Source: Labilibaculum manganireducens (lineage in GTDB: Bacteria > Bacteroidota > Bacteroidia > Bacteroidales > Marinifilaceae). From it: a stretch of DNA of 64,000 bases. Under the pieces are notes generated by a model. The model searched no databases, was not told the origin of the DNA, and worked only from the letters and a program-made list of their open reading frames with translations. Shown in pieces: positions 47,396 to 64,000 of the stretch. A program made the position numbers and the translations under genes. The stretch spans positions 62,001 through 126,000 of the forward strand of contig NZ_MVDE01000005.1 in assembly GCF_002843385.1 (NCBI RefSeq). The letters are read 5' to 3'. Each line of letters opens with the position of its first letter. Within the stretch, counting starts at the first letter, position 1.

Positions 47396-47467
47396 GCAAA
47401 ACTAAATTTTGCATTCAACATATGCAAAAACCGCAATTCATAACTCGTAATTCATAATTATCTTTTG

Positions 47468-48367: not shown

Positions 48368-48409
48368 TAGGAGTCAATACTAAACACGAATCATTCAGGC
48401 CTTATATCC

Positions 48410-49087
48410 TTAATAATTCATCATATACCCTACTCCTCTTATGTTCCTGATTTTAAGAGAAGAATTATCCTTAAATAAATCTCTTAATTTCGATAAAATA
48501 TTGTTTAGACTGGCACTGTTGTTTGTTTCCAAAGAATGGTTCCATAGCTTTTCAGCCAACTGCTCTTTAGTTACTGTTTCATTGGGATGCTCCATTAGCA
48601 CTGCCAAAGCACTCTTCTCAAACGGACTCAGTTTCTTAATTAACTGCTTCTTATAAAAAAATTTATTTGTTGATAAATTCAGCTGATAACCAGCCAATTC
48701 TATTATTTGCGGCAAGCTTGTTTTTAAAGCAAAACGTTGAATGTAAGATACTAGTACTGGAATAGATAAAGGTTTTGGGATATAAGCATTTCCCCCAATG
48801 TTTATTCCTTTGGTTATAAAATCATCTTCGGTATGAGAGGAAACAAACAACAGAGGAATTTGCGGGTATTTTGCGATAATATCCTGAGCTTTATCCATTC
48901 CGTTCTCTTTACCTATTTCCACATCCATAATAATAATATCCGGCATCAGAGTTTGTACAATCGTATCTATTCCCAGCAATGTATTTTGGAAATGCACTTT
49001 ATAATTGTAATCGGTCTCTAGTATGGTCGTAACAAAACTTCCTAAATTGAGATCATCATCCACAAACAGTACTTTCAATTGTTCCAT
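48410..49087 (-). CDS. OmpR/PhoB-family response regulator
   Basis: DNA-binding response regulator of 225 residues from the ATG at 49087; a GTG two codons earlier is also possible. The receiver domain has the acidic pocket DDD at residues 10-12, phospho-acceptor Asp 55 in IIIMDVEIG, and Lys 105 in IPKPLS. The C-terminal winged helix holds LSPFEKSALAVLMEHPNETV and IRNIRGVGYMMNY. It is translated 18 bases after the histidine kinase stop, so the two form one operon. The phased TTAG/CTAA boxes in the divergent intergenic region upstream of the kinase are the obvious candidate targets (inference). Confidence 0.93.
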   Translation of the reverse strand: MEQLKVLFVDDDLNLGSFVTTILETDYNYKVHFQNTLLGIDTIVQTLMPDIIIMDVEIGKENGMDKAQDIIAKYPQIPLLFVSSHTEDDFITKGINIGGNAYIPKPLSIPVLVSYIQRFALKTSLPQIIELAGYQLNLSTNKFFYKKQLIKKLSPFEKSALAVLMEHPNETVTKEQLAEKLWNHSLETNNSASLNNILSKLRDLFKDNSSLKIRNIRGVGYMMNY

Positions 49088-49105
49088 TTTCACTTCTTTA
49101 ATAAC

Positions 49106-50488: not shown

Positions 50489-50531
50489 AACATAAAGATA
50501 TCTTTCTTTTCATAAAAGAGTAAAGTTTTCT

Positions 50532-50940
50532 TTATTAGAACAATTCTAAATTGTGCTTTTTTGTCAAAAATACAAAAGCTTTTCTAATCAAACACACTGA
50601 TTTTTCTAATCAAATCGTAGCCAAAGTTTCATTGAATGATTAGGAAGATAGTTAGTTCTGCCAGATCCGACTAAATATTGAACTTGCTTTTCCCCACGCC
50701 CTATTTACGCTCTGTCTGTTTTCATGTGTCTAAATTGTTTTTTTATTGTCACATAGCCTGTCCCGAACTTGTTTCGGGAGAACTTACCATTATAATCATT
50801 TCCCTGTGTGTTGAACGCTTTCTACATGGACGTTTCATTTAATGATCATTATCTCACTTTTTTTGATTAGAAAACCACCTATTGTTTGATTAGTTTTCTA
50901 ATTGCAAGTAGTTAGAAAACTAATCGTTTTTTTAGGTTTT
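50532..50940. promoter_or_regulatory. Divergent control region with phased TTAG/CTAA boxes (copy A)
   Basis: Between the divergent kinase gene and the first GG-leader peptide lie an inverted repeat TTAGAA-CAA-TTCTAA (50535-50549), two CTAATCAAA boxes (CTAA at 50584 and 50606, 22 bases apart), and three GATTAG boxes (TTAG at 50867, 50890 and 50912, steps of 23 and 22). Two of the latter are full palindromes, TTAGTTTTCTAA and TTAGAAAACTAA. The last lies 10 bases before a TAGGTTTT -7-like box (50933-50940). This is the layout expected for an OmpR-family activator on one DNA face. A second copy stands at 59703-60000. The remainder of 50489-50996 holds only a REP-like repeat. Confidence 0.7.
50723..50838. 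repeat. REP-like palindromic repeat inside control region A
   Basis: Starts TTCATGTGTCTAAATTG, has the CCCGAACTTGTTTCGGG palindrome (50762-50778), and ends CATGGACGTTTCAT. It is almost the same as the copies at 34212 and 59555. Control region B lacks a repeat at this internal point, so the element probably inserted here after the two regions diverged, or was lost from B. Confidence 0.75.
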
Positions 50941-50996
50941 ATGTTCCAATTTTGAAAGAGTTTTAAATGAATACTTCACTTAAAAAAGTAAAAATC

Positions 50997-51128
50997 ATGA
51001 AAACACGAAAGAACTATAAGGCAATTGAGGTATTGAATCAAAACGAATTGACCCTCGTGAAAGGTGGAGAGGAAGGAAATTATATTATTGTTATTATTGA
51101 TGGAAAAGAGGTGAGAATATATGTGTAA
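50997..51128 (+). CDS. Double-glycine-leader peptide without cysteine (candidate RiPP or signal peptide)
   Basis: Peptide of 43 residues starting MKTRKNYKAIEVLNQNELTL and continuing VKGG at residues 21-24, then a 19-residue hydrophobic core EEGNYIIVIIDGKEVRIYV. The leader fits L-x3-[EA]-L-x2-[ILV]-K-G-G, shared by the other two peptides of the island and resembling the GG leaders of Bacteroidales natural-product precursors. An in-frame ATG at 50967 would add ten residues and cannot be excluded. It is the first gene behind the boxed promoter. The core has no Cys, so it is not an obvious thioether substrate and may be a signal, an unmodified bacteriocin or a decaying gene. Confidence 0.65.
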   Translation: MKTRKNYKAIEVLNQNELTLVKGGEEGNYIIVIIDGKEVRIYV

Positions 51129-51183
51129 TAGAAAAGAATGTAATATGACAATCTACTTTTTAGGGAAAAATAATTTAGGAAAG

Positions 51184-51237
51184 TAGCCGCCCCGGATTAC
51201 GCATGAATATAAATCCATCCTCTACCGGAGGTGGCTA
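51184..51237 (+). other. Stem-loop RNA element between the first two peptide genes
   Basis: TAGCCGCCCCGG (51184-51195) can pair with CCGG-A-GGTGGCTA (51225-51237), a 12-bp stem with one bulge and one G-U pair. The right arm can also form GGCTA-TAG-TAGCC (51233-51245), and AGTAGC (51239) can pair with GCTACT (51271). Mutually exclusive pairings of this kind suggest an attenuator or regulatory RNA, but that is inferred from inspection. An 18-codon frame (51203-51259) runs through it without support. Confidence 0.4.
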
Positions 51238-51342
51238 TAGTAGCCATAGCTACCTGTAAGCAAGGACAAAGCTACTAGAAAGAGGTGAATTTTGCAATTG
51301 TGAAAGGAATGGATAATTATAAAATAACAAATATAATATATT

Positions 51343-51486
51343 ATGAAATTCAAAATTTTAAACCAACCTGAAACTCTTGATAATGAAGCTTTGAATCAAA
51401 TAAAAGGTGGTGGTTGCGGATGCCAAACATGTAATCATTGTAACTGCAAAAAAAATAAGGGCGAAGAAGAAATATCACTATCCTAA
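51343..51486 (+). CDS. Cys-rich GG-leader RiPP precursor 1
   Basis: Peptide of 47 residues: leader MKFKILNQPETLDNEALNQI plus KGG ending at residue 23 or 24, then a core that begins GCGCQTCNHCNCKKNKG. Five Cys lie within 11 residues (25, 27, 30, 33, 35; pattern CxCx2Cx2CxC), followed by an acidic tail EEEISLS. The leader fits the L-x3-[EA]-L-x2-[ILV]-K-G-G pattern of this island. A hairpin comes seven bases after the stop, then a radical SAM/SPASM maturase. This arrangement is typical for a ribosomally made peptide whose cysteines are cross-linked to carbon. The modification itself is inference. Confidence 0.85.
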   Translation: MKFKILNQPETLDNEALNQIKGGGCGCQTCNHCNCKKNKGEEEISLS

Positions 51487-51492
51487 ACAATT

Positions 51493-51530
51493 AAGGCTAC
51501 CAAGAAAAACAACATAATCTTGGTAGCCTT
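51493..51530 (+). terminator. Perfect hairpin between precursor 1 and its maturase
   Basis: A 13-bp stem AAGGCTACCAAGA / TCTTGGTAGCCTT with a 12-base loop and no mismatches, but no T-run. It probably works as a partial terminator or 3' end stabiliser, giving much more precursor mRNA than maturase mRNA. The equivalent place after precursor 2 also has a hairpin. Confidence 0.65.
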
Positions 51531-51564
51531 ACAAATCACAAATATTTATAAACTTACACTCCTT

Positions 51565-52845
51565 ATGATCTGGTCAAAATACAATTTCTCTTTTGAAAAA
51601 GAGAAAATTACCTATCTATACAATTCAAGAACAAATGCTCTGATTTCAACAAATGAAGACGAGACTAAAATATCATTGAATCAAGCAAAAGACGGAAATT
51701 TTTCAATGTTGGATCCGGACTCCTTAGATTTACTAAGAAATGGTAAATTTATTTTATCCCAAGAAGATGAGAACTCTTTTTTTTATGAAAAAAAACACAA
51801 TTACTACACCTCCGTCTTCTCAAATGAAATACTAAATTTAACAATCCTAACTACCCTTAACTGTAATTTTAAATGTCCTTATTGTTATGAAAAAGATGCT
51901 TTAAACACCCAAAATCTTTCTCCTGAAATTGAAAAATCAATAATAAATTTAGCGAAGAAATTTCCAAACATTAATAAAATCAAAATAACATGGTATGGAG
52001 GGGAACCACTTTTAAATTTTGATTCTATAAAGAGACTCACCTTAGAACTTGAGAAACTAAAAAAACCTATCGAACACAACATTGTAACCAATGGTTATCT
52101 ATTAGATGAAAAAATGTCTTTTTTTAACACTCGGAATTTAGAGAGTATTCAAATAACAATAGATGGTTTAGCAGAAACTCATAATAAAAAACGTATTCTA
52201 AAAAATAATAACGGAACATTTGATAAAATACTTGCAAACATTGAAAATTTCTTTAAATTAAATTCTACATGTAGAGTATTTATCAGATGTAATATTGACG
52301 AATCAAACGAAAATGAATTTAGCCAACTTTATCACTTTTTAAACAAAAAATTTAAATTTGAAAAAAGATTAATTATATACGCTGCATTTGTCCGAAATGA
52401 CAACGGCACATGTAATAATATTTTTATTGACAACGATAAAGAGGCTGATTTTTTCATTCGAAATTTTGAAAAAGAAAACATTAAGAATTTAAGCTTTAAA
52501 CCAAGATTAACATTAGGTGGCTGTGGAGCTAATAATCTTCTTTTCTTTGTTATCACTCCTAATGGAGATATGTATAAATGCTGGAATGACATTGGAAAAT
52601 TTGATTATCGAATAGGAAATATACTTGACAATGGAACCTATCTTAATGAAATTACAGATAAATATCTTTTAGGTCCAAGTATATATACAGATGCAGAATG
52701 TAAAAACTGCTCTTTTTTCCCAATATGTAGTGGTGGTTGTTCCCATAAACGAATTCAAAACCTACTTCATAATGGAAAATACAATTTATGCACATACGCG
52801 AAAAATCATCTCGAAAAGTTTCTTGAATTAAATTACTTAATATAA
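51565..52845 (+). CDS. Radical SAM/SPASM peptide maturase 1
   Basis: Protein of 426 residues from the ATG at 51565 (MIWSKYNFSFEKEKITYLYN). This start aligns with the second maturase (MNWSKYNF); an earlier frame opening at 51520 overlaps the hairpin. The [4Fe-4S]-SAM motif is C100-x3-C104-x2-C107 in LNCNFKCPYCYEK, with WYGGEP at 143-148. The SPASM domain has C320-x13-G-x4-C339, then C379-x2-C382-x5-C388-x3-C392 and C409, a full set for two auxiliary clusters. An N-terminal region (1-90) probably binds the leader. Such enzymes form thioether or C-C bonds in peptides. The barrel protein gene follows after six bases. Confidence 0.93.
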   Translation: MIWSKYNFSFEKEKITYLYNSRTNALISTNEDETKISLNQAKDGNFSMLDPDSLDLLRNGKFILSQEDENSFFYEKKHNYYTSVFSNEILNLTILTTLNCNFKCPYCYEKDALNTQNLSPEIEKSIINLAKKFPNINKIKITWYGGEPLLNFDSIKRLTLELEKLKKPIEHNIVTNGYLLDEKMSFFNTRNLESIQITIDGLAETHNKKRILKNNNGTFDKILANIENFFKLNSTCRVFIRCNIDESNENEFSQLYHFLNKKFKFEKRLIIYAAFVRNDNGTCNNIFIDNDKEADFFIRNFEKENIKNLSFKPRLTLGGCGANNLLFFVITPNGDMYKCWNDIGKFDYRIGNILDNGTYLNEITDKYLLGPSIYTDAECKNCSFFPICSGGCSHKRIQNLLHNGKYNLCTYAKNHLEKFLELNYLI

Positions 52846-52851
52846 TAATCG

Positions 52852-55188
52852 ATGCATCGGTATCTACTCTTCTTACTATTTACATTTCAAACACTTACCT
52901 CCCACTCCTCAAATCTGAGGGGTAAGGTTATCAATGATCAAGCTATTTCTCTTGAATACTTTACTGTTGCAATTCTACTCCCTCAGGATTCAAGTATCAT
53001 AATCGGGGGAGCTTTTGTAGATGGTTATTTTGAATTTGAAGATCTTAAAGTTGACCAATGTCTTATTCAAATATCCTGCGTTGGATACCAAACCGTAACT
53101 CAAAATATTGATTTTTCAGCAATCAATTCTATCGATATTGGAACCATTCAAATGAAAAATTTAGAATTGAATGAAATCACCGTTTTTGCAAAGCGACCAA
53201 CTTTTAGGCAAGTTGAAGGTCGCTTGCTTATTGATGTAAAAGGCACTGCATTGAGTGAAGCTGGTGATCTCTTTGATGCTCTGAAAAGATCACCAGGTTT
53301 AGTAGTAGATAACAACAACAACATTACCGTATCTGGGAAAGGAACTCCCATTGTTTTTATCAACAACCGTGAAATTCAAAACAAAGCCGAAATTGAAGCT
53401 TTGCAATCCGATGATATTATGAGTATTGAGATTGACAGGAATCCTTCAGCTGAATACAGTGCTTCGGGAAATGCAGTTGTGAGAATCAAAACCAGGAAAA
53501 TAACAAATGACAAAATAAACCTTCAGATTTACAACCAGAATTATTTTGCAAGAAAAAACAGTACCCTAAACGGAGTACAACTCAACAATAAAATCAACAA
53601 AACAACTGCATCAATTAACTACTCATACAAGTATTTTAAATCGAAAAACTTCGAAGATGCATACGAAATAAACACACAAAGTGAATATACAATTGCTAAC
53701 AATAATTCTACAGTTCGATTTCCAAAAACAAAAACACACAACCTGTTTCTTTCTCTCAATCAAGAAATAACTGCCAAAAACAACATCGGCTTCCAATATT
53801 CATATATTTCTACCAATCAAAAACAGGACTCCGATTCGAAACAAACCATCAACAAAACAAATAATGGAGTTACCAATCGAAATATTTTAAAACTCAGGGA
53901 TGTAGCTAAAGACCTGCACATTTATAATCTGAATTACCAATATGATATTGACAGTACATCTTCTTTGTCCGTTATAGGTGATTACACAAGGTATGTAAAT
54001 CATTCAACCGAAGATATCGGGGAAAAGAACATTACAAATAATTTGAGTTTAAAAAGCTTGATCGATAATCAAAATGATTACACTATCTATAGTGGAAAGA
54101 TAGACTTTAAGACTTGTCTCCTCCAATCAATAAATCTGCAAACAGGAGTAAAAGCATCAAAAGTTACTAACAATGGAAAAGTTACTTCAGTGAATCAAAT
54201 CACCACAACAGAAAACTACCAAATTAATGATAAAATTGATGACCGTATAAGTGCTGCTTATTTCAACTTAGAACCAAAACTAAATAATTTCAAATTGGAA
54301 GCAGGATTTCGTTATGAGTATACCGACACCAAAATATCTTCAAACGAAAAAACTGTTCTCGATTCAACTTACGGGCACTGGTTTCCTTCTGTCTTAATCA
54401 ACAAAGAATTTTCCGACTATGTAAATGTAACATTGAGTTACGCTAAAAAAATTGACCGACCAAGTTTTAATGAATTAAGTACCGACATTACCTATTTTGA
54501 TGCACTATCTTATAGTACCGGAAACCCAAAAATAAAACCAACAATCAGTCACAATCTTGACCTTAGTTTTGGTTTGTTCAAAAATCTCTCGGTTAATTTT
54601 GCTTACTCCTATGAAAAAAATGCACGCATACTAAGTGCTGTAAGCGATAATGCAAATCCAGACATTGTGAAATATACTCCGGTAAACATTAGCCAGGCGG
54701 AATATCTTAATTTGAACATCGATTATAATTATTCAGGAAAAAACCTAAACAGCACTTTTAGCTTTGGAGGGAAAAAACCATTTATAGAAATTCCATATAT
54801 GGATGAACTACGAAAAATCCGAAACTCCTCGTGGTACTTTCAAACCAATAACGATTATTCAATTACATCCAGAACAAGTATTTTTGCAAATTACCTATAT
54901 AATAGCAGCAGTAAAGATTTAATGACGCATTTTGAGAGTTCTTCCAAGTTGTCTGTTGGTGTAAATACTTCTTTTTTCAGTAAAAAGTTAAACATTGCAA
55001 TAATGGCAAATGATATTTTCAACACTTCCGATAATTCATGGGAAGATCGATATGGAAACATTGTTGCGGGTTCCATTCCTGACCAAGACAACTCATGGAT
55101 TAGATTTTCCATTAAATACAATTTCAATAATTTTAAAGGAGGCCTCAAGAAAAAATCAGCAAGCGAAAGTGAATTGAATCGACTATAA
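52852..55188 (+). CDS. Outer-membrane beta-barrel protein with carboxypeptidase-like and plug domains
   Basis: Protein of 778 residues related to TonB-dependent receptors. A signal peptide (YLLFLLFTFQTLTSHSS) precedes a CarboxypepD_reg-like domain (about 20-110, LRGKVINDQAISLEYFTVAI). A plug domain follows (about 125-215, LFDALKRSPGLVVDNNNNIT and NPSAEYSASGNAVVRIKT), then a barrel of the OMP_b-brl_3 type. The C terminus is unusual: after the last strand (WIRFSIKYNFNNF) it ends in a basic/polar tail KGGLKKKSASESELNRL without terminal Phe. The 6-base gap to the maturase suggests translational coupling. A likely job is export or import of the peptide product, or immunity; none is shown. A 3' fragment of a paralogue lies at 62718. 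Confidence 0.88.
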   Translation: MHRYLLFLLFTFQTLTSHSSNLRGKVINDQAISLEYFTVAILLPQDSSIIIGGAFVDGYFEFEDLKVDQCLIQISCVGYQTVTQNIDFSAINSIDIGTIQMKNLELNEITVFAKRPTFRQVEGRLLIDVKGTALSEAGDLFDALKRSPGLVVDNNNNITVSGKGTPIVFINNREIQNKAEIEALQSDDIMSIEIDRNPSAEYSASGNAVVRIKTRKITNDKINLQIYNQNYFARKNSTLNGVQLNNKINKTTASINYSYKYFKSKNFEDAYEINTQSEYTIANNNSTVRFPKTKTHNLFLSLNQEITAKNNIGFQYSYISTNQKQDSDSKQTINKTNNGVTNRNILKLRDVAKDLHIYNLNYQYDIDSTSSLSVIGDYTRYVNHSTEDIGEKNITNNLSLKSLIDNQNDYTIYSGKIDFKTCLLQSINLQTGVKASKVTNNGKVTSVNQITTTENYQINDKIDDRISAAYFNLEPKLNNFKLEAGFRYEYTDTKISSNEKTVLDSTYGHWFPSVLINKEFSDYVNVTLSYAKKIDRPSFNELSTDITYFDALSYSTGNPKIKPTISHNLDLSFGLFKNLSVNFAYSYEKNARILSAVSDNANPDIVKYTPVNISQAEYLNLNIDYNYSGKNLNSTFSFGGKKPFIEIPYMDELRKIRNSSWYFQTNNDYSITSRTSIFANYLYNSSSKDLMTHFESSSKLSVGVNTSFFSKKLNIAIMANDIFNTSDNSWEDRYGNIVAGSIPDQDNSWIRFSIKYNFNNFKGGLKKKSASESELNRL

Positions 55189-55214
55189 ATTCAAATCTCC
55201 CATCAGAAATGAAC

Positions 55215-55378
55215 AAAATGCATTTAGGAACAACGAAGAAGCTCTTAGGAACGACCATTCTGCGCGGAATGATGACTCCTAAAGCCTATCTGGTCACCCC
55301 TAAAAGGGAATGATAAGTCCTAAACTCGGAATGGTCACTCCTAAAACTGGAATGATTACTCCTAAGTACAGAATGGCC
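55215..55378. repeat. Degenerate 21-bp repeats with an inverted upstream half
   Basis: Five units of 20-21 bases (from 55269: ATGATGACTCCTAAAGCC, then 55290, 55310, 55331, 55352) follow ATGRTNACTCCTAAAnnnGGA. Upstream (55222-55262) TTAGGAACAACG and TTAGGAACGACCATTC are related sequences in the opposite orientation. Read as codons some units give M-[VI]-T-P-K heptads, and a 34-codon frame (55209-55313) starts MNKMHLGTTKKLLGTTIL, but a 20-base unit shifts the frame. I therefore treat it as a repeat and not a gene. It fills most of the gap between the barrel gene and the helical protein gene. Confidence 0.75.
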
Positions 55379-55440
55379 TTTCCACACCCAATATGATGAT
55401 ACCACAGTAATTTTCTATTTAACCTTTAAAAAATCATAAA

Positions 55441-56097
55441 ATGAACAATTTAAACGAAAGCCTTGCCCAATTTCTGGTAAGTACCAAACTACTAATCAAC
55501 AACAGCATTAACAGTTCTATTATTAAATCTACTGTCGCATTGTTCGGTTACGATGAACCAAAACTTACCGAAGCACAAACCTTACTAAATACTGTTGAGG
55601 ATCTGAACAACACTCAACAGAAAGAGTATGGCGATCAGTACCAGGCTCAAAATGATTTTCAGACTAATCGAAAAAAAGCCCATGACGCTTATATGGATTT
55701 GCTAACAATTGCCAAAATTGCATTAAAAAATGATGTGAGTGCTCAACAAAGCCTGGGTCTGAATCATCCTCGTAAAAAAAGCTTTAGCGGTTGGCTGACA
55801 CAAGCTTTACAATTTTGCAACAATTTAATTGCAAGCCCAAACTACACTGCCACCATGGAAGTTTACGGACAAGGAGTGGAGAAAATACAAGCCGTAAAAC
55901 AAGCAATTACTGACACTCAAAATTCTGCCGAAATACACAAAAGCGAAACAGGAGAAGCTCAACAGGCAACACAGTTGCGCGACGCTAAATTAGACGAACT
56001 TGCTATTTGGGTAATCGACTACAAGAAAATTGCTAGAATTGCATTAAAAGAGCAGCCTCAACTATTGGAAAAATTAGGATTACTGGAAAGGTCGTAA
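55441..56097 (+). CDS. Helical protein of unknown function with two similar halves
   Basis: Protein of 218 residues, no signal peptide, almost all predicted helix and rich in Gln and Ala. Two related segments occur: AYMDLLTIAKIALKNDVSAQ with QSLGLNHPRK (about 80-115) and AIWVIDYKKIARIALKEQPQ with LLEKLGLLERS (about 188-218). Each ends in IA[KR]IALK....LGL, so the protein looks like a duplicated four-helix-type unit. Similar hypothetical proteins occur in marine Bacteroidota as far as I recall, without assigned role. Its place between barrel gene and precursor 2 makes it a candidate immunity or accessory factor, purely by context. Confidence 0.75.
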   Translation: MNNLNESLAQFLVSTKLLINNSINSSIIKSTVALFGYDEPKLTEAQTLLNTVEDLNNTQQKEYGDQYQAQNDFQTNRKKAHDAYMDLLTIAKIALKNDVSAQQSLGLNHPRKKSFSGWLTQALQFCNNLIASPNYTATMEVYGQGVEKIQAVKQAITDTQNSAEIHKSETGEAQQATQLRDAKLDELAIWVIDYKKIARIALKEQPQLLEKLGLLERS

Positions 56098-56158
56098 CTA
56101 AAAATATACCGGTTACCGAAAAGGTTATAGAGTAGGTGTTATTTAATAATTAACAGAA

Positions 56159-56365
56159 ATGAAGAAAATTAATTTCTTAGAAGATCCAAAGGTTGATCAA
56201 CATCAAGACAAAAGAATGTTTCCTCAGATGTTTAACCTAAGCGACACTGAACTTTCAAATTTAAAAGGAGGAATACTTGATAAAGATGTTCCTGATTGTG
56301 ATGCCGTATGTTTACCATCAGAACATGGTGGAGGAACTTGCAGTTGCCTAAGTAATTTATGCTAA
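56159..56365 (+). CDS. Cys-rich GG-leader RiPP precursor 2
   Basis: Peptide of 68 residues. The leader has an extra N-terminal stretch (MKKINFLEDPKVDQHQDKRM) and then the shared pattern in NLSDTELSNLKGG, with the double Gly at residues 37-38. The 30-residue core ILDKDVPDCDAVCLPSEHGG continues GTCSCLSNLC. It has five Cys (47, 51, 61, 63, 68), as in precursor 1, but with different spacing and a Gly-rich middle. The last residue is Cys. A hairpin follows 18 bases after the stop, then the second maturase. Confidence 0.85.
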   Translation: MKKINFLEDPKVDQHQDKRMFPQMFNLSDTELSNLKGGILDKDVPDCDAVCLPSEHGGGTCSCLSNLC

Positions 56366-56383
56366 AATTTTATTACTCAAATT

Positions 56384-56410
56384 GAAGATCGATTTCTATC
56401 GATCTTCTTT
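56384..56410 (+). terminator. Hairpin between precursor 2 and its maturase
   Basis: A 10-bp perfect stem GAAGATCGAT / ATCGATCTTC with a TTCT loop and a short T-run (TTT). It is placed exactly like the hairpin after precursor 1 and is the better terminator of the two. Confidence 0.7.
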
Positions 56411-56428
56411 CCATCTTAACTTATAAAA

Positions 56429-57748
56429 ATGAATTGGTCTAAATATAATTTTCTTTTTAAGTCCCGGCAATACGGATATTTAATTTATAATACGCTTACA
56501 AATAGCTTTGCCGAAATTGATGAATCAACATTCAATAAATTTGAAAAACTTAAAAATGACACAAAAACGATCAATAACGATTTTTCCCAAGAGGAAATAG
56601 AAAAGTTGCAACAGGCTAAAATAATTGTAAATAATGATTACGATGAATATTTAAAAATCAAACTTAGCAGGCATATTAAAAGGTTCGACAAAAGCTTAAT
56701 GACACTAACAATAGCTCCAACTTTACATTGTAATTTTGCATGCAGTTATTGTTTTGAGGATGCTCGCCCCAAAGTTTATATGACCGACCAAATCGAAAAT
56801 GACATTATATCTTTTATTAAAAGGCATACTGAAGTAAAAAGACTCTCAATTACATGGTTTGGAGGGGAACCTTTATTAAGTTTCGATAGAATTGAATCAT
56901 TAACAAAAAAAATAAAATTACTGGAAATAAATTACTACTCGTCAATAATAACAAATGGCTATTTATTAACTCAAAAAGTTGTTGATAAATTACATGAGTT
57001 AAAGATAAGACATGTACATGTAACTATAGATGGCCCTGAAAATATTCATAATAAAAGAAGACCTCATATAAAAGAAACAGATTCTTTTGATGTTATATAT
57101 ACAAATATACTTCGACTTAAACCATTAATAAAAGCTCAAAAGGTTGCATTAACTGTCAGGGTAAATGTGGATCATACCAACGAAGTTCATTATCATGAAA
57201 TTTACAAAAAAATCAGAACTGACTTTACCGGTCTCGAAGTATCTATATACGCTGGTATTGTAAAGAAATCGTATGGATCCTGTTCTTCTGTTGATGATAT
57301 ACTTATGGATAATCAAGAACAAGCCAACTTCAATATTGAGCAATTCTCTAAATACGGAATCAAAAACTCTAATTTCTTTCCCATAAAGGTTAGCGGTGAA
57401 TGTATGGCTCGTCAGCTTTATGGATATTTGATTGATGCAAGAGGAGATATTTACAAATGTTGGACGGATGTTGGTAATAAAAAGGAAGTTGTTGGAAATA
57501 TTTCAAATAACAACGCCATAAACCCAACAAAACTAACCAGGTATTTAACTGGTGCTGATGTGTTTGACAAACCAGAATGCCAGGAATGTTTTTTCCTTCC
57601 TGTTTGTGGTGGAGGTTGTCCACACCTCGCCCTAAAGAAAAAATTTGATGGAAACCCTATTAACTTATGTCTTGTCGCAAAAAATAATTTAAAAGAATTT
57701 TTGGAAATTTATTATGAAATCATAACAAAAAAAACAAAGGCGATTTAA
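56429..57748 (+). CDS. Radical SAM/SPASM peptide maturase 2
   Basis: Protein of 439 residues, a clear paralogue of maturase 1 over its full length (MNWSKYNF start, TWFGGEPLLSFD at 142-153, same cysteine framework). Radical SAM motif C101-x3-C105-x2-C108 in LHCNFACSYCFED. SPASM cysteines C325-x13-G-x4-C344, C384-x2-C387-x5-C393-x3-C397 and C414. The N-terminal 90 residues, the likely leader-binding part, are more divergent from maturase 1 than the catalytic core, which fits two distinct cognate precursors. Specificity between precursor and maturase is inferred from gene pairing. Confidence 0.93.
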   Translation: MNWSKYNFLFKSRQYGYLIYNTLTNSFAEIDESTFNKFEKLKNDTKTINNDFSQEEIEKLQQAKIIVNNDYDEYLKIKLSRHIKRFDKSLMTLTIAPTLHCNFACSYCFEDARPKVYMTDQIENDIISFIKRHTEVKRLSITWFGGEPLLSFDRIESLTKKIKLLEINYYSSIITNGYLLTQKVVDKLHELKIRHVHVTIDGPENIHNKRRPHIKETDSFDVIYTNILRLKPLIKAQKVALTVRVNVDHTNEVHYHEIYKKIRTDFTGLEVSIYAGIVKKSYGSCSSVDDILMDNQEQANFNIEQFSKYGIKNSNFFPIKVSGECMARQLYGYLIDARGDIYKCWTDVGNKKEVVGNISNNNAINPTKLTRYLTGADVFDKPECQECFFLPVCGGGCPHLALKKKFDGNPINLCLVAKNNLKEFLEIYYEIITKKTKAI

Positions 57749-57774
57749 AAACATTTTATTGTGATACCCCTTAA

Positions 57775-57811
57775 GTGCACCTGCTTAAATGGTAATTGTT
57801 TAAGCAGGCAC
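57775..57811 (+). other. Stem-loop between maturase 2 and the S41 peptidase gene
   Basis: Ten base pairs CCTGCTTAAA / TTTAAGCAGG plus an outer GTG/CAC with a two-base bulge, loop of nine bases. No T-run follows, so it may be an intercistronic processing or weak termination site in the 91-base gap. Confidence 0.5.
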
Positions 57812-57839
57812 TATTCCTAAATTAACCAAGCAACCTTCC

Positions 57840-59168
57840 ATGAAAAACTTTATTCTTCTTTCATTTGTATTTCTGATTACCTACAATGCATGTAGTCAGA
57901 AATACACTCCATACTACTTTTCAAATGTCGAGATCATAAATGACCTTCAATTTTTAAAAGAAAAATGTACAAGTATTCATCCTAAATTCTTAGACGAAAA
58001 CTTCTCAAAATCGTGGAGCAATACCTACGACAGCATTCTAAACACTCTGCCAGACAGCATATCCATTACTGATAGTTTTGTGTTAATGGCAAAACTTTTG
58101 TCGGGAATTGAAGACACACATACAGGATTTAATTTCCCTATTGAAGAGAGGCAAAAATATATGTTTAACGGAGGCCTTTGTATGCCATTTACGATTCTGG
58201 TTAAAAACAATAAATTATTTTTCAATCAGTATTTTAGTAAAGACCCAAACATACAGCTAAGCGATGTTGAGATAGTATCGATAAACGCAATTGATTCTCA
58301 AAAAATACTCTCCGATTTACGAAGTATAGTGGGTGTTAAGAATAGGGAATGTGGAGATCACGCAGTAGAAATGTTCTTTAATATGGGTTTTTGGATACTT
58401 TATGGTGAATCAGAAAAATATCTTATACAAACAGTTTCTTCCGACTCAATTCTTACTGCAAAAGCGCTTACCAACGAACAATATTTCTCGCTTAAAAACC
58501 AGTATCCTAATCCACAACAAAATCAATACAAATTGGAGTTTTCCGCGAATAGAAAAGTGGCATATCTATCCATAAAATCCTTTTTGGGAGATGATAATTT
58601 CTATACTTTCCTTTCCAACTCTTTTGACTCTATAAAACAAAAAGAATGTTCTGCATTAATTATAGATGTAAAGAATAACCCAGGAGGAAGAAGTCGTGCC
58701 GTTGACAGCCTGCTAAATTATCTAACCAATAAACCATATCGTCAATATGCATCTATTGGTATTCGTGTAAGTGATGAAATAAAAACTTTATACAAGACTA
58801 AAAATCAGCATTTGTATTCTATTATAAATCAGTTAAATGAAGATGTAATTTACAGCTTTAATGATAGTGCTTTACTACATATTCCTAATCCTAAAAAATC
58901 ATTATTCGAGGGGGATGTATTCGTTACGATAAATGAGAGAACAAATAGTGCCGCAGCAACATTTGCAGGTGTCGTAAAAGAAAAGAAACTTGGCAAAATA
59001 GTTGGTCATAAACCGACAGGCGAACACCTAAAATACTATGGTGATTATCTTTCTTTTAAGCTTCCTCATACAAAATTCGAGTTTTTTGTATCCCCCAAGG
59101 AGTTTATCCAATATGGTGGAACAAACTACAATACCGGGGTAAAGCCTGATACCTCTACCTTGCCTTAA
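57840..59168 (+). CDS. S41-family peptidase, secreted
   Basis: Protein of 442 residues with an N-terminal export signal (FILLSFVFLITYNACSQ, possibly lipidated at Cys 18 although the lipobox is not ideal). The C-terminal half is an S41 (C-terminal processing peptidase-like/Tsp) domain. Its marks are ALIIDVKNNPGGRSRAVDSL, the catalytic Ser near residue 370 in TNSAAATFAG, and GKIVGHKPTGEHLKYYGDY. The N-terminal region includes SGIEDTHTGFNFPIEERQKY, the conserved substrate-side DxHT element. No PDZ domain is obvious. As last gene of the peptide operon it might process, degrade or detoxify the mature product in the periplasm; this is a contextual inference. Confidence 0.88.
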   Translation: MKNFILLSFVFLITYNACSQKYTPYYFSNVEIINDLQFLKEKCTSIHPKFLDENFSKSWSNTYDSILNTLPDSISITDSFVLMAKLLSGIEDTHTGFNFPIEERQKYMFNGGLCMPFTILVKNNKLFFNQYFSKDPNIQLSDVEIVSINAIDSQKILSDLRSIVGVKNRECGDHAVEMFFNMGFWILYGESEKYLIQTVSSDSILTAKALTNEQYFSLKNQYPNPQQNQYKLEFSANRKVAYLSIKSFLGDDNFYTFLSNSFDSIKQKECSALIIDVKNNPGGRSRAVDSLLNYLTNKPYRQYASIGIRVSDEIKTLYKTKNQHLYSIINQLNEDVIYSFNDSALLHIPNPKKSLFEGDVFVTINERTNSAAATFAGVVKEKKLGKIVGHKPTGEHLKYYGDYLSFKLPHTKFEFFVSPKEFIQYGGTNYNTGVKPDTSTLP

Positions 59169-59212
59169 ATTGAATACAAATATAAGTTAGTTCGTAGAAA
59201 GCGTTCTTCTCC

Positions 59213-59488
59213 CTACTCATAAAACCCCTTACCAAACACACCAAATTCATATTTCCCCAGTACTTTGTGTTTCCAAACGGCATCCATAAATCCGATGCCA
59301 TAATCGAAGAGCTACACAAAACTTGCTGCAAGCGCTTTTATTGCAATGGCAAACAATTTGCTCTTTGTAAGTGCATCAGCAAACACAAGAATAGCGTATA
59401 AAAAAACTGGAAAAGAAAAAATCCGGTGAACAGCTATCCCTAAAACGAATGCTCCAATTGTTGCCACAACCACACTAACTGCGAAATA
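59213..59488 (-). pseudogene. Glycosyltransferase family 2 pseudogene, C-terminal fragment
   Basis: Translates to the last 90 or so residues of the intact glycosyltransferase at 62927 (GAFVLGIAVHRIFSFPVFLY then AILVFADALTKSKLFAIAIK, and after the stop GIGFMDAVWKHKVLG and EFGVFGKGFYE). It has an in-frame TAG where the intact copy has Gln in SFVQLFAYG. All of the N-terminal catalytic domain is missing. It lies at the boundary of the first unit, in the same orientation as the intact gene, and marks one end of the duplicated segment. Confidence 0.85.
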
Positions 59489-59683
59489 ATAATCACTGCC
59501 TTGTATGTGAAAGGCTTTACACATGGACTTTTCGCAGAACAAAGGCCTACTACTTTTCATATGATTATAATTTTAAACTTTTGCCATATAGCCTGTCCCG
59601 AACTTGTTTCGGGAGAACTTACCACGCCGGGAATAATCATCTCCCTGAGTGTCAAAAAATGTTTTGGCATGGACGTTTCATAA
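59486..59683. repeat. REP-like repeat: one partial and one full copy
   Basis: A full copy (about 59555-59683) holds CCCGAACTTGTTTCGGG (59597-59613) and ends CATGGACGTTTCAT. Just before it, 59486-59535 reads AATAATCACTGCCTTGTATG and ACACATGGACTTTTC, which matches only the right end of the element. The fragment begins where glycosyltransferase homology stops, so the element may be linked to the truncation. Confidence 0.65.
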
Positions 59684-59702
59684 CGAAATAATTATTTCAT
59701 CA

Positions 59703-60000
59703 TTAGAACAATTCTAAATTGAATTTTTAATTCAAAAAATACATTTTTTTTCTAATCAAAACAGACCCTTTTCCTAATCAAATTGCAATAGAATTCTAAT
59801 CAAATGATTAGAAAAGAACCAGCACTTGCTATTTATTATTTTTTAATAGACTCCTATCTCTCTTCACTATTTTGTTCGATATATATTTTGTTTTAACTAA
59901 TCATTTCATCTGTTTTTGATTAGAAAACAGCTTCCAGTTTGCTTAGATTTCTAATCACAAGCAACTAGCAAGTTAATCGTATTTGTTGAATTTAGGTTTT
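59703..60000. promoter_or_regulatory. Second copy of the phased TTAG/CTAA control region (copy B)
   Basis: It repeats the plan of copy A: TTAGAA-CAA-TTCTAA (59703-59717), CTAATCA boxes with CTAA at 59752, 59774 and 59796 (exact 22-base steps; the gap of 38 from the inverted repeat equals that in copy A), and GATTAG/TTAG boxes at 59920, 59943 and a CTAG variant at 59965 (steps 23 and 22, as in copy A). It ends in the same TAGGTTTT box (59993-60000). Box positions are kept better than the sequence between them, which suggests they are functional. No kinase gene stands on its left side. Confidence 0.7.
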
Positions 60001-60019
60001 ATTTTTAAAAGAAGTTTAC

Positions 60020-60130
60020 AACGACTATTTCATCAAAAAAAGCAAAGTATTTAAGACTCTAAATCAAAATGAACTGGCACAACTTAAAAGTGACAATAAT
60101 ATTATGTTGTTATATATGGAAAAATGGTGA
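60020..60130 (+). pseudogene. Decayed GG-leader peptide gene, counterpart of the peptide at 50997
   Basis: The frame reads FIKKSKVFKTLNQNELAQLK then SDNNIMLLYMEKW. It matches the leader pattern L-x3-E-L-x2-L-K, but the double Gly is replaced by Ser-Asp and the ATG position reads ACG. The core is shortened by a deletion. Flanking DNA on both sides matches copy A, including ATATGACAATCTAC just downstream (60187 versus 51144). The 60131-60352 stretch otherwise has only a 36-codon frame from 60188 without support. Confidence 0.7.
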
Positions 60131-60352
60131 GGATATATGCATAATAAAAAAGCATCTAACTAAACAGAGAAATTAACCCAATATAATATGACAATCTACC
60201 TTTTAGTAAAAAATAAATATGAAAAGAAGCCACTACAGATTAACAATAAGACAATAAAACCGCTTCAGAAAGTGACAAGCGTAGTCAAATCTATCTGAAA
60301 ATAAGAGTACTACTATACAGATTTTAACCTTACATAACTAAAGAGTATTAAA

Positions 60353-60748
60353 ATGAAAAACAAGAATAGAGATTTAAATACTAAACGAATGCTGTCACAA
60401 TTGTGCCTTGTCCTCGCCTTTATTGCAATTCTCGCCACAATAGGATGTAATAACAATAATAATTCAAACGAAAAAACGACAATAATTAATGTTGAGCCTG
60501 AAACAATATTAAATGGTACCATCCCTGACTCACCTGATTTGGTAGAGTGCATGGAAGCAACCGACGAAAATACCAATGAAAAATATTATCTGGCATTACA
60601 TCATATTGAAGGATTTGAGTATGAAAAAGGATATAGATATCGACTCAAAGTCATAATAACCCAAGGAGATCCACAACTGGATATACCTACAGAAAATTTT
60701 AAACTTATAGAAATACTATCAAAAATAAAGATTCAAACTGACGAATAA
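60353..60748 (+). CDS. DUF4377-type lipoprotein
   Basis: Protein of 131 residues. A basic N terminus leads to a signal peptide with lipobox ATIGC (Cys 32); an in-frame ATG at 60389 (MLSQLCLVLAFIAILATIGC) would give a tidier signal peptide. After an Asn-rich linker the domain has CMEATDENTNEKYYLALHHI, EGFEYEKGYRYRLKVIITQG and FKLIEILSKI, matching the DUF4377 pattern of a central EGFxYExGYxYxLxV. Function of the family is unknown. It is the first intact gene behind promoter copy B. Confidence 0.8.
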   Translation: MKNKNRDLNTKRMLSQLCLVLAFIAILATIGCNNNNNSNEKTTIINVEPETILNGTIPDSPDLVECMEATDENTNEKYYLALHHIEGFEYEKGYRYRLKVIITQGDPQLDIPTENFKLIEILSKIKIQTDE

Positions 60749-60782
60749 CAACAATCCCTTTCCCAATTAATAAATTCATATT

Positions 60783-61901
60783 ATGAAAAAAAACATTTTA
60801 AATTCAGCTTTAATAGTAAGCTTGTGCTTAGTATTATTTTCCTGTTCTCAGGAAGAAATAGATGAAACAACAAGTAAAGTAACTTATTCCCCGGAACTAA
60901 TAACCCTTGAATCAGGAGTTGTCGTAGAAAAACAAGGAGATAATTATCTTTGGGAAGGTGATATTTTATTATCTCCCACTCAATTAAAAGCATTGAATGA
61001 CAGTGGAACAATATTTATTGAAGCAATAGAAAATCCGGCACCAATAACTTCATTAAATCCTGTTACAAACTTACCAGTAAGTTTATCTTCTGAAAATGGA
61101 GAACAGACAAAAGCTCTAGGTATATATCCTACGGCATATAATCTTTGGGCTATGGTACGTTTTACATACAATGCTAATTTAACCTCTACCCAGAAATATT
61201 ATATTAAAGTAGCTCTTTTAGACATTGAATCGAGAACTAATATTAGATTTTACAACGCAACCGGGCAACCAACGGTTGACCCTACATATGGTTTTGCTTA
61301 TCCATATGTTGACTTCACAGCCATAGGAGATGAAGATACGAGTAGCTCTTATGTTGGTAGAATTGGTGGAAGACAACAAATTAGTCTTGCTGATTTTGCT
61401 TTTTCTTATTGGAGTAGTCGCGTTATTGAACATGAAATATTACATGCATGCGGTATGTTACACGAACAATGTCGTAAAGACAGGGACAATTATGTGACTA
61501 TTGATTGGTCTAATTTGACCTCATCGGGAGAAGCCCAATTTACTAAAAGAACAAGCAATTATTATATGATTGGTAGTTATGACTTTAATTCAATTATGGG
61601 TTATCCTTCAAAAACAGACTCTCAGAGTGCAGTTGTAAGTACAAGTGAACCAATGTACACAAAAAAAGATGGTAGTTATATTACTCAAGGAAGTATACCG
61701 TCTGACTTAGACAGACGTTGGGTTAATACCTTATACTTACCCTATATAGCCCGGTCTGATGTGTACCGTGAATTAGATGCTGTTGTATATAAATCTGACA
61801 ATACCGTTATGACAGCATCAGAAAGACTATCCTTGCAAGCTCAGTTAAATAATGGGGTTTCAACCCCTCCAGCGGGTGGCCAAATATCGAATGAATTTTA
61901 A
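60783..61901 (+). CDS. Astacin-like (M12A) zinc metallopeptidase lipoprotein
   Basis: Secreted protease of 372 residues. The signal peptide ends at a lipobox (VLFSC, Cys 21), followed by a pro-region of about 90 residues. The catalytic domain carries the extended zinc site HEILHACGMLHEQCRKDRDN (His 217, 221, 227, with Glu 218) and the Met-turn SIMGYPS, both typical of astacins such as flavastacin. Four Cys or fewer are seen in the mature part. It lies 34 bases after the DUF4377 gene and is followed by a strong terminator. Substrate unknown. Confidence 0.92.
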   Translation: MKKNILNSALIVSLCLVLFSCSQEEIDETTSKVTYSPELITLESGVVVEKQGDNYLWEGDILLSPTQLKALNDSGTIFIEAIENPAPITSLNPVTNLPVSLSSENGEQTKALGIYPTAYNLWAMVRFTYNANLTSTQKYYIKVALLDIESRTNIRFYNATGQPTVDPTYGFAYPYVDFTAIGDEDTSSSYVGRIGGRQQISLADFAFSYWSSRVIEHEILHACGMLHEQCRKDRDNYVTIDWSNLTSSGEAQFTKRTSNYYMIGSYDFNSIMGYPSKTDSQSAVVSTSEPMYTKKDGSYITQGSIPSDLDRRWVNTLYLPYIARSDVYRELDAVVYKSDNTVMTASERLSLQAQLNNGVSTPPAGGQISNEF

Positions 61902-61929
61902 GCAGATTTAATTTATTAATTTTACATAT

Positions 61930-61978
61930 TGCCGGGAACGCTTTTTGGGAAAGTGGATTTATTCCCGGCATTTTTTTT
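61930..61978 (+). terminator. Terminator after the metallopeptidase gene
   Basis: A 9-bp stem TGCCGGGAA / TTCCCGGCA with a loop of about 23 bases and an eight-base T-run closes the DUF4377-peptidase unit. Confidence 0.8.
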
Positions 61979-62177
61979 ATATACAAGAATAAACAATTTA
62001 CAAAAAGTCAAGTTTCTGGCGAGAAGTTTGATCAAGCCCAAAACCATTTTGTAGATAAAAAAATCTGCAAGTCGATTTCTATTACAAATTTTCTCTTTAT
62101 ACGTTACTTATAAACACGCAACCAATTCAATAAAATGACGTCTTAAAAAAATAAGACAAATTCTAAATTCAAAAAAA

Positions 62178-62624
62178 ATGAAAACTTATTTGACAATTAT
62201 TCTATCGCTTTTATTCCTTTCTGGATGCCTAAAAGATGATGACAACACTCCCGAAATAACTATCGATTGGGAAACTTATGACTATGTGATGAATTGGACT
62301 GAAGTTGAGAGCAAGACGGGAGATTCTGATTGGGAAAATATATTTGAGGGACAAGATTTGACCTTTTTATCTAACTCTATTGATGAAGAACTTGAATTGC
62401 CCAATAATGGAATCATTCTATATGCACCAAGTGTCAATATCAATATAAAAAATAACACTTCATTTGAAAGAACAGATAGTACATTCGTACTTTATTTGTA
62501 CCCAGATACAACAGAAGCCGATACGATATCCTTAGCTTATAAGCTTTCAGATAGTTCAACCTTAGTGATATCAGACACAACAGTAAGCCCTGCTACTCAA
62601 ATTAAATACAGAAGAGATAATTAA
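62178..62624 (+). CDS. Hypothetical lipoprotein, acidic
   Basis: Unrecognised protein of 148 residues. It has a clean lipoprotein signal (MKTYLTIILSLLFLSGC, Cys 17) and a very acidic mature part (KDDDNTPEITIDWETYDYVM). The rest looks beta-rich, with regular TDSTFVLYLYPDTTEADTIS and LSDSSTLVISDTTVSPATQI. No Cys after the lipid anchor. It lies beyond the metallopeptidase terminator, so it needs its own promoter, and I did not find a convincing one in the 61979-62177 gap. Confidence 0.75.
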   Translation: MKTYLTIILSLLFLSGCLKDDDNTPEITIDWETYDYVMNWTEVESKTGDSDWENIFEGQDLTFLSNSIDEELELPNNGIILYAPSVNINIKNNTSFERTDSTFVLYLYPDTTEADTISLAYKLSDSSTLVISDTTVSPATQIKYRRDN

Positions 62625-62717
62625 AATGTACTGTCTCAATTTTTATCTCAGCACTTAATACAGACATAAGCTACTGAATGTCATAAAATAGAAGCAACAA
62701 ATTCATATCAATACTGA

Positions 62718-62897
62718 AATGACATTTTAAACTCATCAGACAATGCGTGGGAAGACAGATACGGTAACATTACAGCCGGATCAATTCCTGATCATGATAA
62801 CACGTGGGTGCGGATTTCAATCAAATACAATTTCAATCATTTTAGAGGAGGCCTCAAGAAGAAATCTGCCAGTGAAAGTGAATTAATCAGACTATGA
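62718..62897 (+). pseudogene. 3' remnant of a second outer-membrane barrel protein gene
   Basis: Fifty-nine codons from NDILNSSDNAWEDRYGNITA to KKKSASESELIRL match the C terminus of the barrel protein at 52852, with 48 of 59 residues identical by my count. In-frame TGA just upstream and the lack of anything matching the remaining 719 residues show it to be a fragment. It ends 30 bases before the convergent glycosyltransferase gene. The 62625-62717 stretch before it has no gene. Confidence 0.88.
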
Positions 62898-62926
62898 AAA
62901 ATAGAATACTACTCTTGTTCAAGTTC

Positions 62927-63937
62927 CTATTCGTAAAACCCTTTTCCAAACACCCCAAATTCATCTTGACCCAGAACTTTATGCTTCCAAATGGCATCCA
63001 TAAATCCGATACCATAAGCGAACAACTGCACAAAACTTGCAGCAAGCGCTTTTATTGCAATGGCAAACGATTTGCTCTTTGTGAGTGCATCAGCAAAAAC
63101 CAGAAAAGCGTACAAAAGAACCGGAAAAGCAAAAATTCGGTGAACAGCAATCCCTAATACTATAGCTCCAATTGTTCCTATTGCGAACAATGATGGGAAC
63201 AGAAAGAAGATCTTGAAAGTTTCCGGGTAATGTTTTGAGATAATGTAGCGGGTTTTGCCAAAACCAAAAACCTGTTTATAGAATTTTTTAAAGGAGATTC
63301 TTCGTTTGTGAAATACGTAAGCATCGTGAACCAACCGAGTCTCGAAACCACGCTTAATTACCTCAATGGCAAAAACCATATCTTCGCCCGGATGCATAGT
63401 AGTTACCGGAAATCCGCCCGTATTTTCATAAACAGCTTTCGAAAAGCCCAAATTAAAACTACGTGGGTGAAATTTGTGAACCTGTTGCTTTCCCCCTCGA
63501 ATACCTCCGGTTGTAAAAAAGGAAGTCATGGCATAAGAAACTGCTTTCTGAAAATCCGAGAAATCGTCCATAGCACCATCGGGACCGCCATAACAATCCA
63601 CAAAATTATCGGTTAATTCCCGATGTATGGTTTCCATATAGTGAGCTGGAAGAATACAATCCGAATCGAAAAACAGAAAATAATTCCCTTTCGCTCTGGC
63701 CAATCCATAGTTACGACCAATGCTGGGACCTTCGTTTTGTTTGTAGAAATACGATATATTTATCCGATCTCGATAGCTGTCGCAAAGCTCTTCACTTTTT
63801 ATCGATGAACCATCCTCAACCACTACCAATTCAAAATCTTTAAAAGTCTGCCCGGATAAACTATCAAGCAGTTCTTTCATTTCATCCGGACGATTGTACA
63901 CCGGAATAATAATCGAAAATTTAATTTCTTCGGACAT
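62927..63937 (-). CDS. Glycosyltransferase family 2, membrane associated
   Basis: Protein of 336 residues from the ATG at 63937 (MSEEIKFSIIIPVYNRPDEM), which follows the stop of the upstream gene by one base; an in-frame ATG at 63970 would overlap that gene. GT-A motifs: SIIIPVYNRPDEM, VVVEDGSS, NYGLARAKGNYFLFFDSDCI (DxD-like), GEDMVFAIEVIKRGFETRLV. The C-terminal 90 residues hold two hydrophobic segments (FLFPSLFAIGTIGAIVLGIA and FPVLLYAFLVFADAL). It probably transfers a sugar from a nucleotide donor onto a lipid or polysaccharide; neither is known. A broken copy of its 3' end lies at 59213. Confidence 0.92.
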   Translation of the reverse strand: MSEEIKFSIIIPVYNRPDEMKELLDSLSGQTFKDFELVVVEDGSSIKSEELCDSYRDRINISYFYKQNEGPSIGRNYGLARAKGNYFLFFDSDCILPAHYMETIHRELTDNFVDCYGGPDGAMDDFSDFQKAVSYAMTSFFTTGGIRGGKQQVHKFHPRSFNLGFSKAVYENTGGFPVTTMHPGEDMVFAIEVIKRGFETRLVHDAYVFHKRRISFKKFYKQVFGFGKTRYIISKHYPETFKIFFLFPSLFAIGTIGAIVLGIAVHRIFAFPVLLYAFLVFADALTKSKSFAIAIKALAASFVQLFAYGIGFMDAIWKHKVLGQDEFGVFGKGFYE

Positions 63938-63938
63938 C

Positions 63939-64000
63939 TTATCGTTTTTGATTGAAATAGAAAATTTCATTCATTGGCAAGCGATACTTTTCGGCCAAAT
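63939..64000 (-). CDS. C-terminal end of an unidentified upstream gene (partial)
   Basis: The minus-strand frame entering from the right edge reads LAEKYRLPMNEIFYFNQKR and stops at 63939-63941, one base before the glycosyltransferase ATG (TAA-G-ATG). The tight spacing shows an operon with the glycosyltransferase. Too little is visible to name it. Confidence 0.65.
   Translation of the reverse strand, partial: LAEKYRLPMNEIFYFNQKR

Follow-up and report, generated by a model that had tools for sequence, protein, structure and literature searches.

Three-component peptide-pheromone regulation of class II bacteriocins, of the plantaricin (Pln) or ComCDE type, is known in Gram-positive bacteria, where pheromones with double-glycine (GG) leaders are paired with kinases. 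These systems use a polytopic kinase and a LytTR regulator. A 64,000-nucleotide stretch (the window) on contig C5 of the 5.3-Mb genome (G000) of the marine bacterium Labilibaculum manganireducens holds an island of two units, A and B, in which genes for a response regulator, a sensor histidine kinase (HK) and a GG-leader peptide, pepA1, stand beside cassettes for ribosomally synthesized and post-translationally modified peptides (RiPPs). The likeness to Pln/ComCDE lies in the GG-leader peptide beside a kinase and regulator, a C39 exporter in several relatives, and repeated boxes in the putative target promoters. The Gram-negative Bacteroidota host, the swappable RiPP cassettes and an RNA element set the locus apart. 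On balance, we favor reading it as a peptide-sensing three-component switch with exchangeable cargo, in which unit B is a promoter-only copy. The consulted sections of PMC10352776 describe Bacteroidales RiPP clusters with GG precursors, radical S-adenosylmethionine (SAM), YcaO and LanC-like enzymes, peptidase-containing ATP-binding cassette transporters and C39 exporters; among these clusters, BGC5 includes a kinase and a regulator. The enzyme and transporter types of our locus are like those, and BGC5 shares the presence of a kinase and regulator, whereas a kinase-linked conserved peptide, a shared operator, cassette exchange and the RNA are not described in those sections.

A conserved core consisting of the regulator-HK pair, a divergent promoter with TTTGATTAGAAAA boxes and the 43-aa GG-leader peptide is well supported by comparison among relatives, and the cargo beyond it varies between export genes alone, a SagBCD-like YcaO cassette and cassettes of the radical-SAM type. 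The initial annotation, made from the letters of the window, had passed over this module with its exchangeable cargo, along with the RNA element and a kinase 5' fragment described below. The core features of unit A are as follows.
48410..49093, minus strand: OmpR-type response regulator, with Response_reg and Trans_reg_C over cutoff
49106..50488, minus strand: sensor histidine kinase, with HATPase_c over cutoff and HisKA below cutoff
50508..50990, no strand: divergent promoter A, with a palindrome at 50535-50549
50580-50592 and 50602-50614: HK-facing boxes of promoter A; its peptide-facing boxes start at 50862 and 50885
50719..50840, plus strand: interspersed repeat in promoter A (approximate ends)
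50997..51128, plus strand: pepA1, 43-aa GG-leader peptide, conserved beside the kinase
51173..51309, plus strand: structured RNA element (match to covariance model R2)

The HK has an extracytoplasmic stretch at about residues 30-200 between two predicted long helices; its structure model is poor (predicted template modeling score 0.38). Peptides were sought at 17 kinase homologues, consisting of 13 plus four more (L043, L046, L048 and L049) from a scan of named genomes; that scan gave 79 loci, and the 12 with near full-length kinase matches were used for peptides while the other 67 were left out. An intact divergent pepA1-type gene lies beside the kinase-regulator pair in 14 of the 17. In G014 the peptide frame is broken and the regulator gene frameshifted, and in Ancylomarina 16SWW the peptide is seemingly interrupted by a repeat. 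K-G-G, one Tyr and one Gly are invariant in all 13 aligned peptides, and the pepA1 core was modeled as a β-hairpin (predicted local distance difference test 68-74 there, mean 57). Among 56 genomes of the family (Marinifilaceae), a peptide profile had matches in 11 (E ≤ 0.001), every one of which also has the kinase. Across 393 genomes of the order it gave 22 matches in 15 genomes (E ≤ 0.01). The strongest matches outside the family, in G070, G057, G169 and G283, are divergent to a kinase-regulator pair, and each of these pairs scores over cutoff for HATPase_c, Response_reg and Trans_reg_C; the G070 peptide was part of the profile and the other three were outside it. G057 has three tandem peptide copies and G283 has two, one with a stop. 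There were 14 weaker matches; the 13 inspected either match only the leader of some other GG peptide or lie within the reading frame of an unrelated protein, in one case a LytTR regulator.

The boxes of the divergent promoter face both ways and are spaced 22-23 bp apart. Across the whole genome, the tandem box pattern has three near-exact sites (0-1 mismatch), none of them outside promoters A and B; a fourth site, elsewhere, has three mismatches. An HK-facing box (up to three mismatches) lies 88-94 nt from the HK start in nine of 11 promoters. Between promoters A and B, 38 of 39 box positions are unchanged versus 207 of 335 other positions; therefore, unit B retained what the regulator would need, while the peptide was lost. 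The corresponding figures are 39/39 versus 233/339 for the window against L027 and 35/39 versus 243/358 against the L. euxinus locus (L026). Inspected by eye, the L026 promoter is a mosaic with a B-like left half, an A-like right half and an intact kinase adjoining, a pattern suggestive of either gene conversion or unit loss.

The cargo of unit A begins after the RNA element.
51343..51486, plus strand: pepA2, Cys-rich GG-leader precursor, 88% identical in L025 (bacteriocin_sig 15.2 bits)
51520..52845, plus strand: radical-SAM/SPASM maturase 1 (start codon uncertain)
52852..55188, plus strand: outer-membrane β-barrel protein (OMP_b-brl_3)
55441..56097, plus strand: PQLLE family protein (NF052641, 232 bits, cutoff 80)
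56159..56365, plus strand: pepA3, Cys-rich GG-leader precursor (TIGR04149 14.0 bits)
56429..57748, plus strand: radical-SAM/SPASM maturase 2 (family search)
57840..59168, plus strand: S41 peptidase-family protein (family search)

Genes after the core encode radical-SAM proteins in the window and in L023, L025, L026, L027 (two), L028, L032 and L049, and each of these loci carries GG peptides of differing sequence. The Marinifilum D737 locus (L029) has SagD (269 bits, cutoff 219) and SagB (140 bits, cutoff 78) instead of radical SAM, with a SagC-like protein below the TIGR03603 cutoff; by these family matches its cargo is a SagBCD-like YcaO cassette. No such enzyme was recognised in L024 (three proteins searched), L030 (two proteins searched), or L031 and L046 (by eye). 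The best NCBIfam matches of maturases 1 and 2 are TIGR04463 and TIGR04334 (rSAM_vs_C_rich, Clo7bot), which they resemble in this respect; they differ in falling far below the curated cutoffs (205 of 525 and 256 of 600 bits). Both precursors also score under their family cutoffs, pepA3 with 14.0 of 25 bits for TIGR04149 GG_sam_targ_CFB and pepA2 with 15.2 of 15.7 bits for TIGR01847 bacteriocin_sig. Since pepA1 is retained across these different modification chemistries, no single maturase is likely to have it as a substrate. The same exchange from radical SAM to YcaO/SagB, or to no recognised maturase, bears on the possibility that pepA1 is an effector, either a secreted antimicrobial peptide or a RiPP precursor, with the kinase sensing envelope damage or another cue and switching the island on. 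G070 has the peptide together with a barrel gene, a C39 exporter (frame broken in two) and an adaptor-like gene, as a bacteriocin locus would, and the 14 kb read contains no recognised maturase; this locus also counts in favor of the switch. According to the consulted sections of PMC10352776, RiPP precursors of Bacteroidales are commonly GG-leader peptides encoded beside C39 exporters. An effector is nonetheless unlikely, as pepA1 stays by the kinase through these changes, has no Cys, and has a core that appears to be conserved as few secreted weapons are.

The proposed working of the switch starts with a C39-peptidase exporter that would cut pepA1 after GG and secrete its β-hairpin core. The kinase outer domain would sense the secreted core, and the phosphorylated regulator would bind the tandem TTTGATTAGAAAA boxes, which are spaced by ~22 bp at either side of the divergent promoter. 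Bound regulator would raise its own genes, pepA1 and the downstream cargo. Recombination would swap the cargo, giving radical-SAM RiPP cassettes here and the SagBCD-like YcaO cassette in a Marinifilum. The modular part of this scheme, in which the core is kept and the cargo changes, is well supported by the relatives compared. Peptide sensing is the most likely mechanism, judged from sequence.

Several observations weigh against a peptide-sensing switch. The reversed control pattern gave six matches with up to three mismatches, and the box was picked by eye from these same promoters. The window and L025 show no box excess (30/39 versus 250/356 for A; 71/76 versus 273/301 for B). No pepA1-type peptide was found in the stretch read of G038, which has a partial 35% kinase match. 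The regulator is OmpR-type with Trans_reg_C, not LytTR, and the kinase here has a single outer stretch, unlike Pln/ComCDE. The window island contains no C39 exporter, and the genome's two strong C39 matches lie on other contigs. This last point and the constant linkage to the kinase would both suit a pepA1 that acts as a small intracellular or membrane modulator of the kinase, in which GG is no cleavage site. A modulator is improbable given the K-G-G invariant in 13 of 13 aligned peptides and the C39 exporters within islands L023, L026, L027, L032 and L049 and in G070.

Unit B and its junction with unit A contain the following features.
59213..59463, minus strand: GT (glycosyltransferase) 3' fragment, ending at the duplication junction (self-comparison, junction scan)
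59452..59561, minus strand: kinase 5' fragment fused to the GT fragment; the overlap 59452-59463 is shared sequence
59555..59681, plus strand: interspersed repeat in promoter B (approximate ends)
59676..60046, no strand: promoter B, box arrays retained (self-comparison, box search)
60030..60125, plus strand: decayed pepA1 copy without GG (approximate ends)
60180..60334, plus strand: decayed copy of the RNA element (67% identity)
60353..60748, plus strand: DUF4377 lipoprotein-like gene (family search)
60783..61901, plus strand: astacin-family metalloprotease (family search)
62178..62624, plus strand: lipoprotein-like gene, no family matched (family search)
62709..62898, plus strand: barrel gene 3' fragment (self-comparison)
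62927..63970, minus strand: intact GT at the right flank (family search, empty-site comparison)

A gapped self-comparison of 49000-64000 bore out the initial annotation of four segments that recur in the same order, with promoter, peptide and barrel pieces scoring 58-150 bits versus a maximum of 36.5 bits in 20 block-shuffled controls. The duplicated pieces are the GT 3' end (59212-59462 = 62926-63176, 87%), the barrel 3' end (54998-55189 = 62709-62898, 78%), the promoter (50508-50646 = 59676-59814 and 50838-50992 = 59892-60046, 72-73%) and the peptide gene (51078-51143 = 60095-60159, 80%). The decayed RNA element copy at 60180-60334 (67%) is also a duplicate. The best proof of a tandem duplication is the kinase 5' fragment that opens unit B (50388-50430 = 59450-59492, 81%). 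Unit B starts as a fusion of GT codon ~265 with HK codon ~30 at 59452-59463 over a short shared sequence. In 18-base windows, identity to GT is 78-94% up to 59458 and 22-39% from 59470, whereas the stretch 59458-59488 matches the HK 5' end at 72-83%. At the junction GCTCCAATTGTT is common to the window and GT, and HK reads GCTCCAACTGCT. The joining of these codons fits a tandem duplication of the segment between GT and HK. One end of the duplication had been annotated inside the GT gene, which the GT fragment at the junction confirms; the other end is inside the HK gene. The GT-HK fusion also occurs in G002 and G003 (three genomes in all). These two and G006 were taken, from kinase identity, as Labilibaculum sp. 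K2S (G002), Labilibaculum filiforme (G003; locus L023) and L. euxinus (G006). The window comes from a draft assembly of 97 contigs, and its double structure might be an assembly artefact or reflect two independent acquisitions. This is scarcely credible when the same fusion stands in G002 and G003, the ground on which an artefact was rejected, and when the copies differ by 13-28%. The tandem duplication is certain for practical purposes. A GT tree had weak support and gives no date for it.

Two of the duplicated segments differ from the initial annotation in detail. The boxed promoter is duplicated over the two stretches given above, and part of the remaining similarity (50746-50838 = 59581-59681) is mostly an interspersed repeat that matches at 58 places in the genome. 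This repeat was inserted separately in each promoter copy, because it is absent from both L023 promoters and present in both window promoters. A 71-bp promoter match was rejected as support for the duplication since it is this repeat. The repeat is ~120 bp long, TTTCAT bounds the seven outside copies shown, and some copies are in tandem (L006, L007, L008). A GG-leader peptide had been annotated at both units, and a copy of the gene does stand in unit B. It is decayed: the GG site is deleted (LVKGGEEG to LKS) and the frame ends early, and a functional second peptide was rejected on these grounds. In this lineage, GT and HK recombined over the short shared sequence and so duplicated the island in tandem. 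Unit B kept the operators and lost the peptide and RNA element; its present genes, for the DUF4377 protein, astacin protease and lipoprotein, would be controlled by that same regulator. The duplication, whose junction persists in three genomes, shows an operator copied and apparently recruited for new cargo while the peptide gene decays. In another family, a similar locus (L227, G283) likewise contains a duplicate of the peptide gene, along with additional barrel genes and a truncated part of an exporter, and from it duplication and decay may recur in such islands.

The left flank of the island is one further feature.
47465..48367, plus strand: miaA, which adjoins GT in G008 and G004

GT and miaA were matched in eight of nine genus genomes, the window's own included; neither was matched in G005, which is 63% complete. 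In G008 and G004 they lie side by side with <60 bp between them, and ~1.2 kb of other sequence separates them in G001. The locus is a genomic island inserted between miaA and GT, because G008 and G004 have both genes adjacent, and it was duplicated afterwards. The initial annotation had the island itself arise by tandem duplication, which these empty sites contradict. Five genus genomes contain the island, with two units in G000, G002 and G003 and one unit in G006 and G007. Single-unit strains had been predicted. The G003 contig stops within unit B, and the right end of its island is outside view. The two-unit island of G002 is otherwise similar and has no second maturase pair, PQLLE gene or S41 gene. 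Of the two precursor/maturase pairs annotated in unit A, the second is further cargo, as is the S41 gene, both being absent from G002. Window and G003 are 99.6% identical over 59673-60788 and 99.2% over the GT fragments, versus ~87% from miaA to HK and 85% over the 3' ends of the intact GT genes; therefore, parts of the island moved recently between species. The core occupies other sites in other genera, adjoining a ribosomal-protein-S15-like gene in L027 and L028 and another small gene in L029 and L043 (neighbours named by eye).

The interval between pepA1 and pepA2 is conserved in L023, L025, L026, L027 (two copies), L028 and L032 (75-96% identity). A first fold, from eight copies (six distinct), did not clearly exceed shuffles and was rejected (covariation score matched by 78 and 33 of 500). 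Its inner helices were abandoned once a longer outer helix became apparent from the non-island copies. Covariance model R1, built from the eight copies, matched 20 times among the 56 family genomes, in 11 of them; 11 of the 20 matches are at loci other than the island. Alignment A7 contains 17 distinct copies (six island, 11 outside) aligned without structure. It supports an outer helix and a 3' hairpin, and between them a middle helix that can pair in two alternative ways. RNAalifold on A7 alone gave 11 pairs; the distal pairing and 3' hairpin were added from the aligned sequences. The distal pairing has 42 cells changed on both sides versus 17.6 ± 3.9 in 500 shuffles and a covariation score of 0.423 versus 0.249, none of the shuffles being as high in either, figures that are not probabilities because kin copies are included and the structure was chosen on the same sequences. 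Slid versions reach at most 12 cells. The proximal pairing has 36 cells (slid versions at most 14). Both pairings of the middle helix are thus supported, with no choice between them. For further pair types in the distal pairing there was no clear excess, as 80 of 500 shuffles were equally high.

Model R2 gave 28 matches in 15 of 39 chosen genomes, and 24 of these score at least 68 bits. Five of the 24 are at loci outside the training set (two in G019, two in G054, one in G014), where 76 of 89 cells are paired and 16 changed on both sides in an alignment fitted to the model. These results well support a structured RNA by covariation. The alternative is that there is no functional RNA, and that conservation of a short or degenerate coding region gives a false appearance of structure. 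Such a region would account for the short frame (MTIYFLGKNNLGK) that, by eye, precedes the element in island copies and for the ordinary fold energy of the window copy (z = -0.32). It is very improbable given the 42 both-side-changed cells (shuffles 17.6, slid versions no more than 12), the paired cells at the five new loci, and outside copies in which a MTIYFLGKNNLGK-type frame was not seen by eye.

Copies of the RNA recur at unlinked Marinifilaceae loci, where the next genes include LanC-like (L180, L184, L187) and radical-SAM (L185, L188) ones. The window's own genome has one copy outside the island, on the contig of a C39 exporter. By a fixed rule, a GG-leader-like open reading frame starts within ~120 nt downstream of 18 of 22 RNA copies versus 50 of 2000 random positions; L201, one of the 18, resembles an ordinary signal peptide, and among the four misses L192 does have a GG peptide, which failed the rule. 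Among 393 order genomes searched with strict filters, only the copies of the own genome scored well. Five matches outside the family (24-28 bits) were treated as noise, and the two inspected (L220, L222) have no GG-leader gene after them. Like Rfam cis-regulatory RNAs, the element has covarying helices close upstream of a coding gene and two mutually exclusive pairings. Unlike them, it is unmatched in Rfam 15 at E ≤ 1 within 48300-64000, and none was found at gathering score in 15 related loci. The only match in that range is a sub-threshold DUF805b RNA at 56106-56138, just upstream of pepA3 (31.8 bits, gathering score 35.6). The motif is probably new. It is the most surprising part of the locus and, from its position, looks like a regulatory RNA of an undescribed kind; lying after pepA1 and before the RiPP precursor gene, it would add a second level of control, as in other GG-peptide operons of the family.

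Searches of an open-access library turned up no title or abstract opening that describes the peptide-kinase pairing or the RNA; most subscription papers lay outside this search. If the peptide is a signal, the locus would be a genetically testable peptide quorum-sensing circuit in Bacteroidota, and kinase, peptide and boxes would provide a conserved handle to find or switch on silent RiPP clusters of any chemistry. RiPP precursor genes are difficult to detect from sequence, and the RNA element would mark them independently of their chemistry. A fuller picture is more tentative, at a little under even chances: a peptide-pheromone switch would serve as a portable front end for RiPP cassettes, its operator would have been duplicated and captured a protease-bearing operon, and a new RNA family, possibly bistable, would control GG-peptide operons of different chemistry in Marinifilaceae.

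Other GG-leader small peptides were seen in L126, L127, L130 and L131 beside apparent TPR-repeat and regulatory proteins, and perhaps represent another kind of peptide-linked regulation in Bacteroidota. A Marinifilum locus (L155, G016:C4) has a tandem array of ten Cys-containing small peptides with GG leaders (MKNLENL...KGG).

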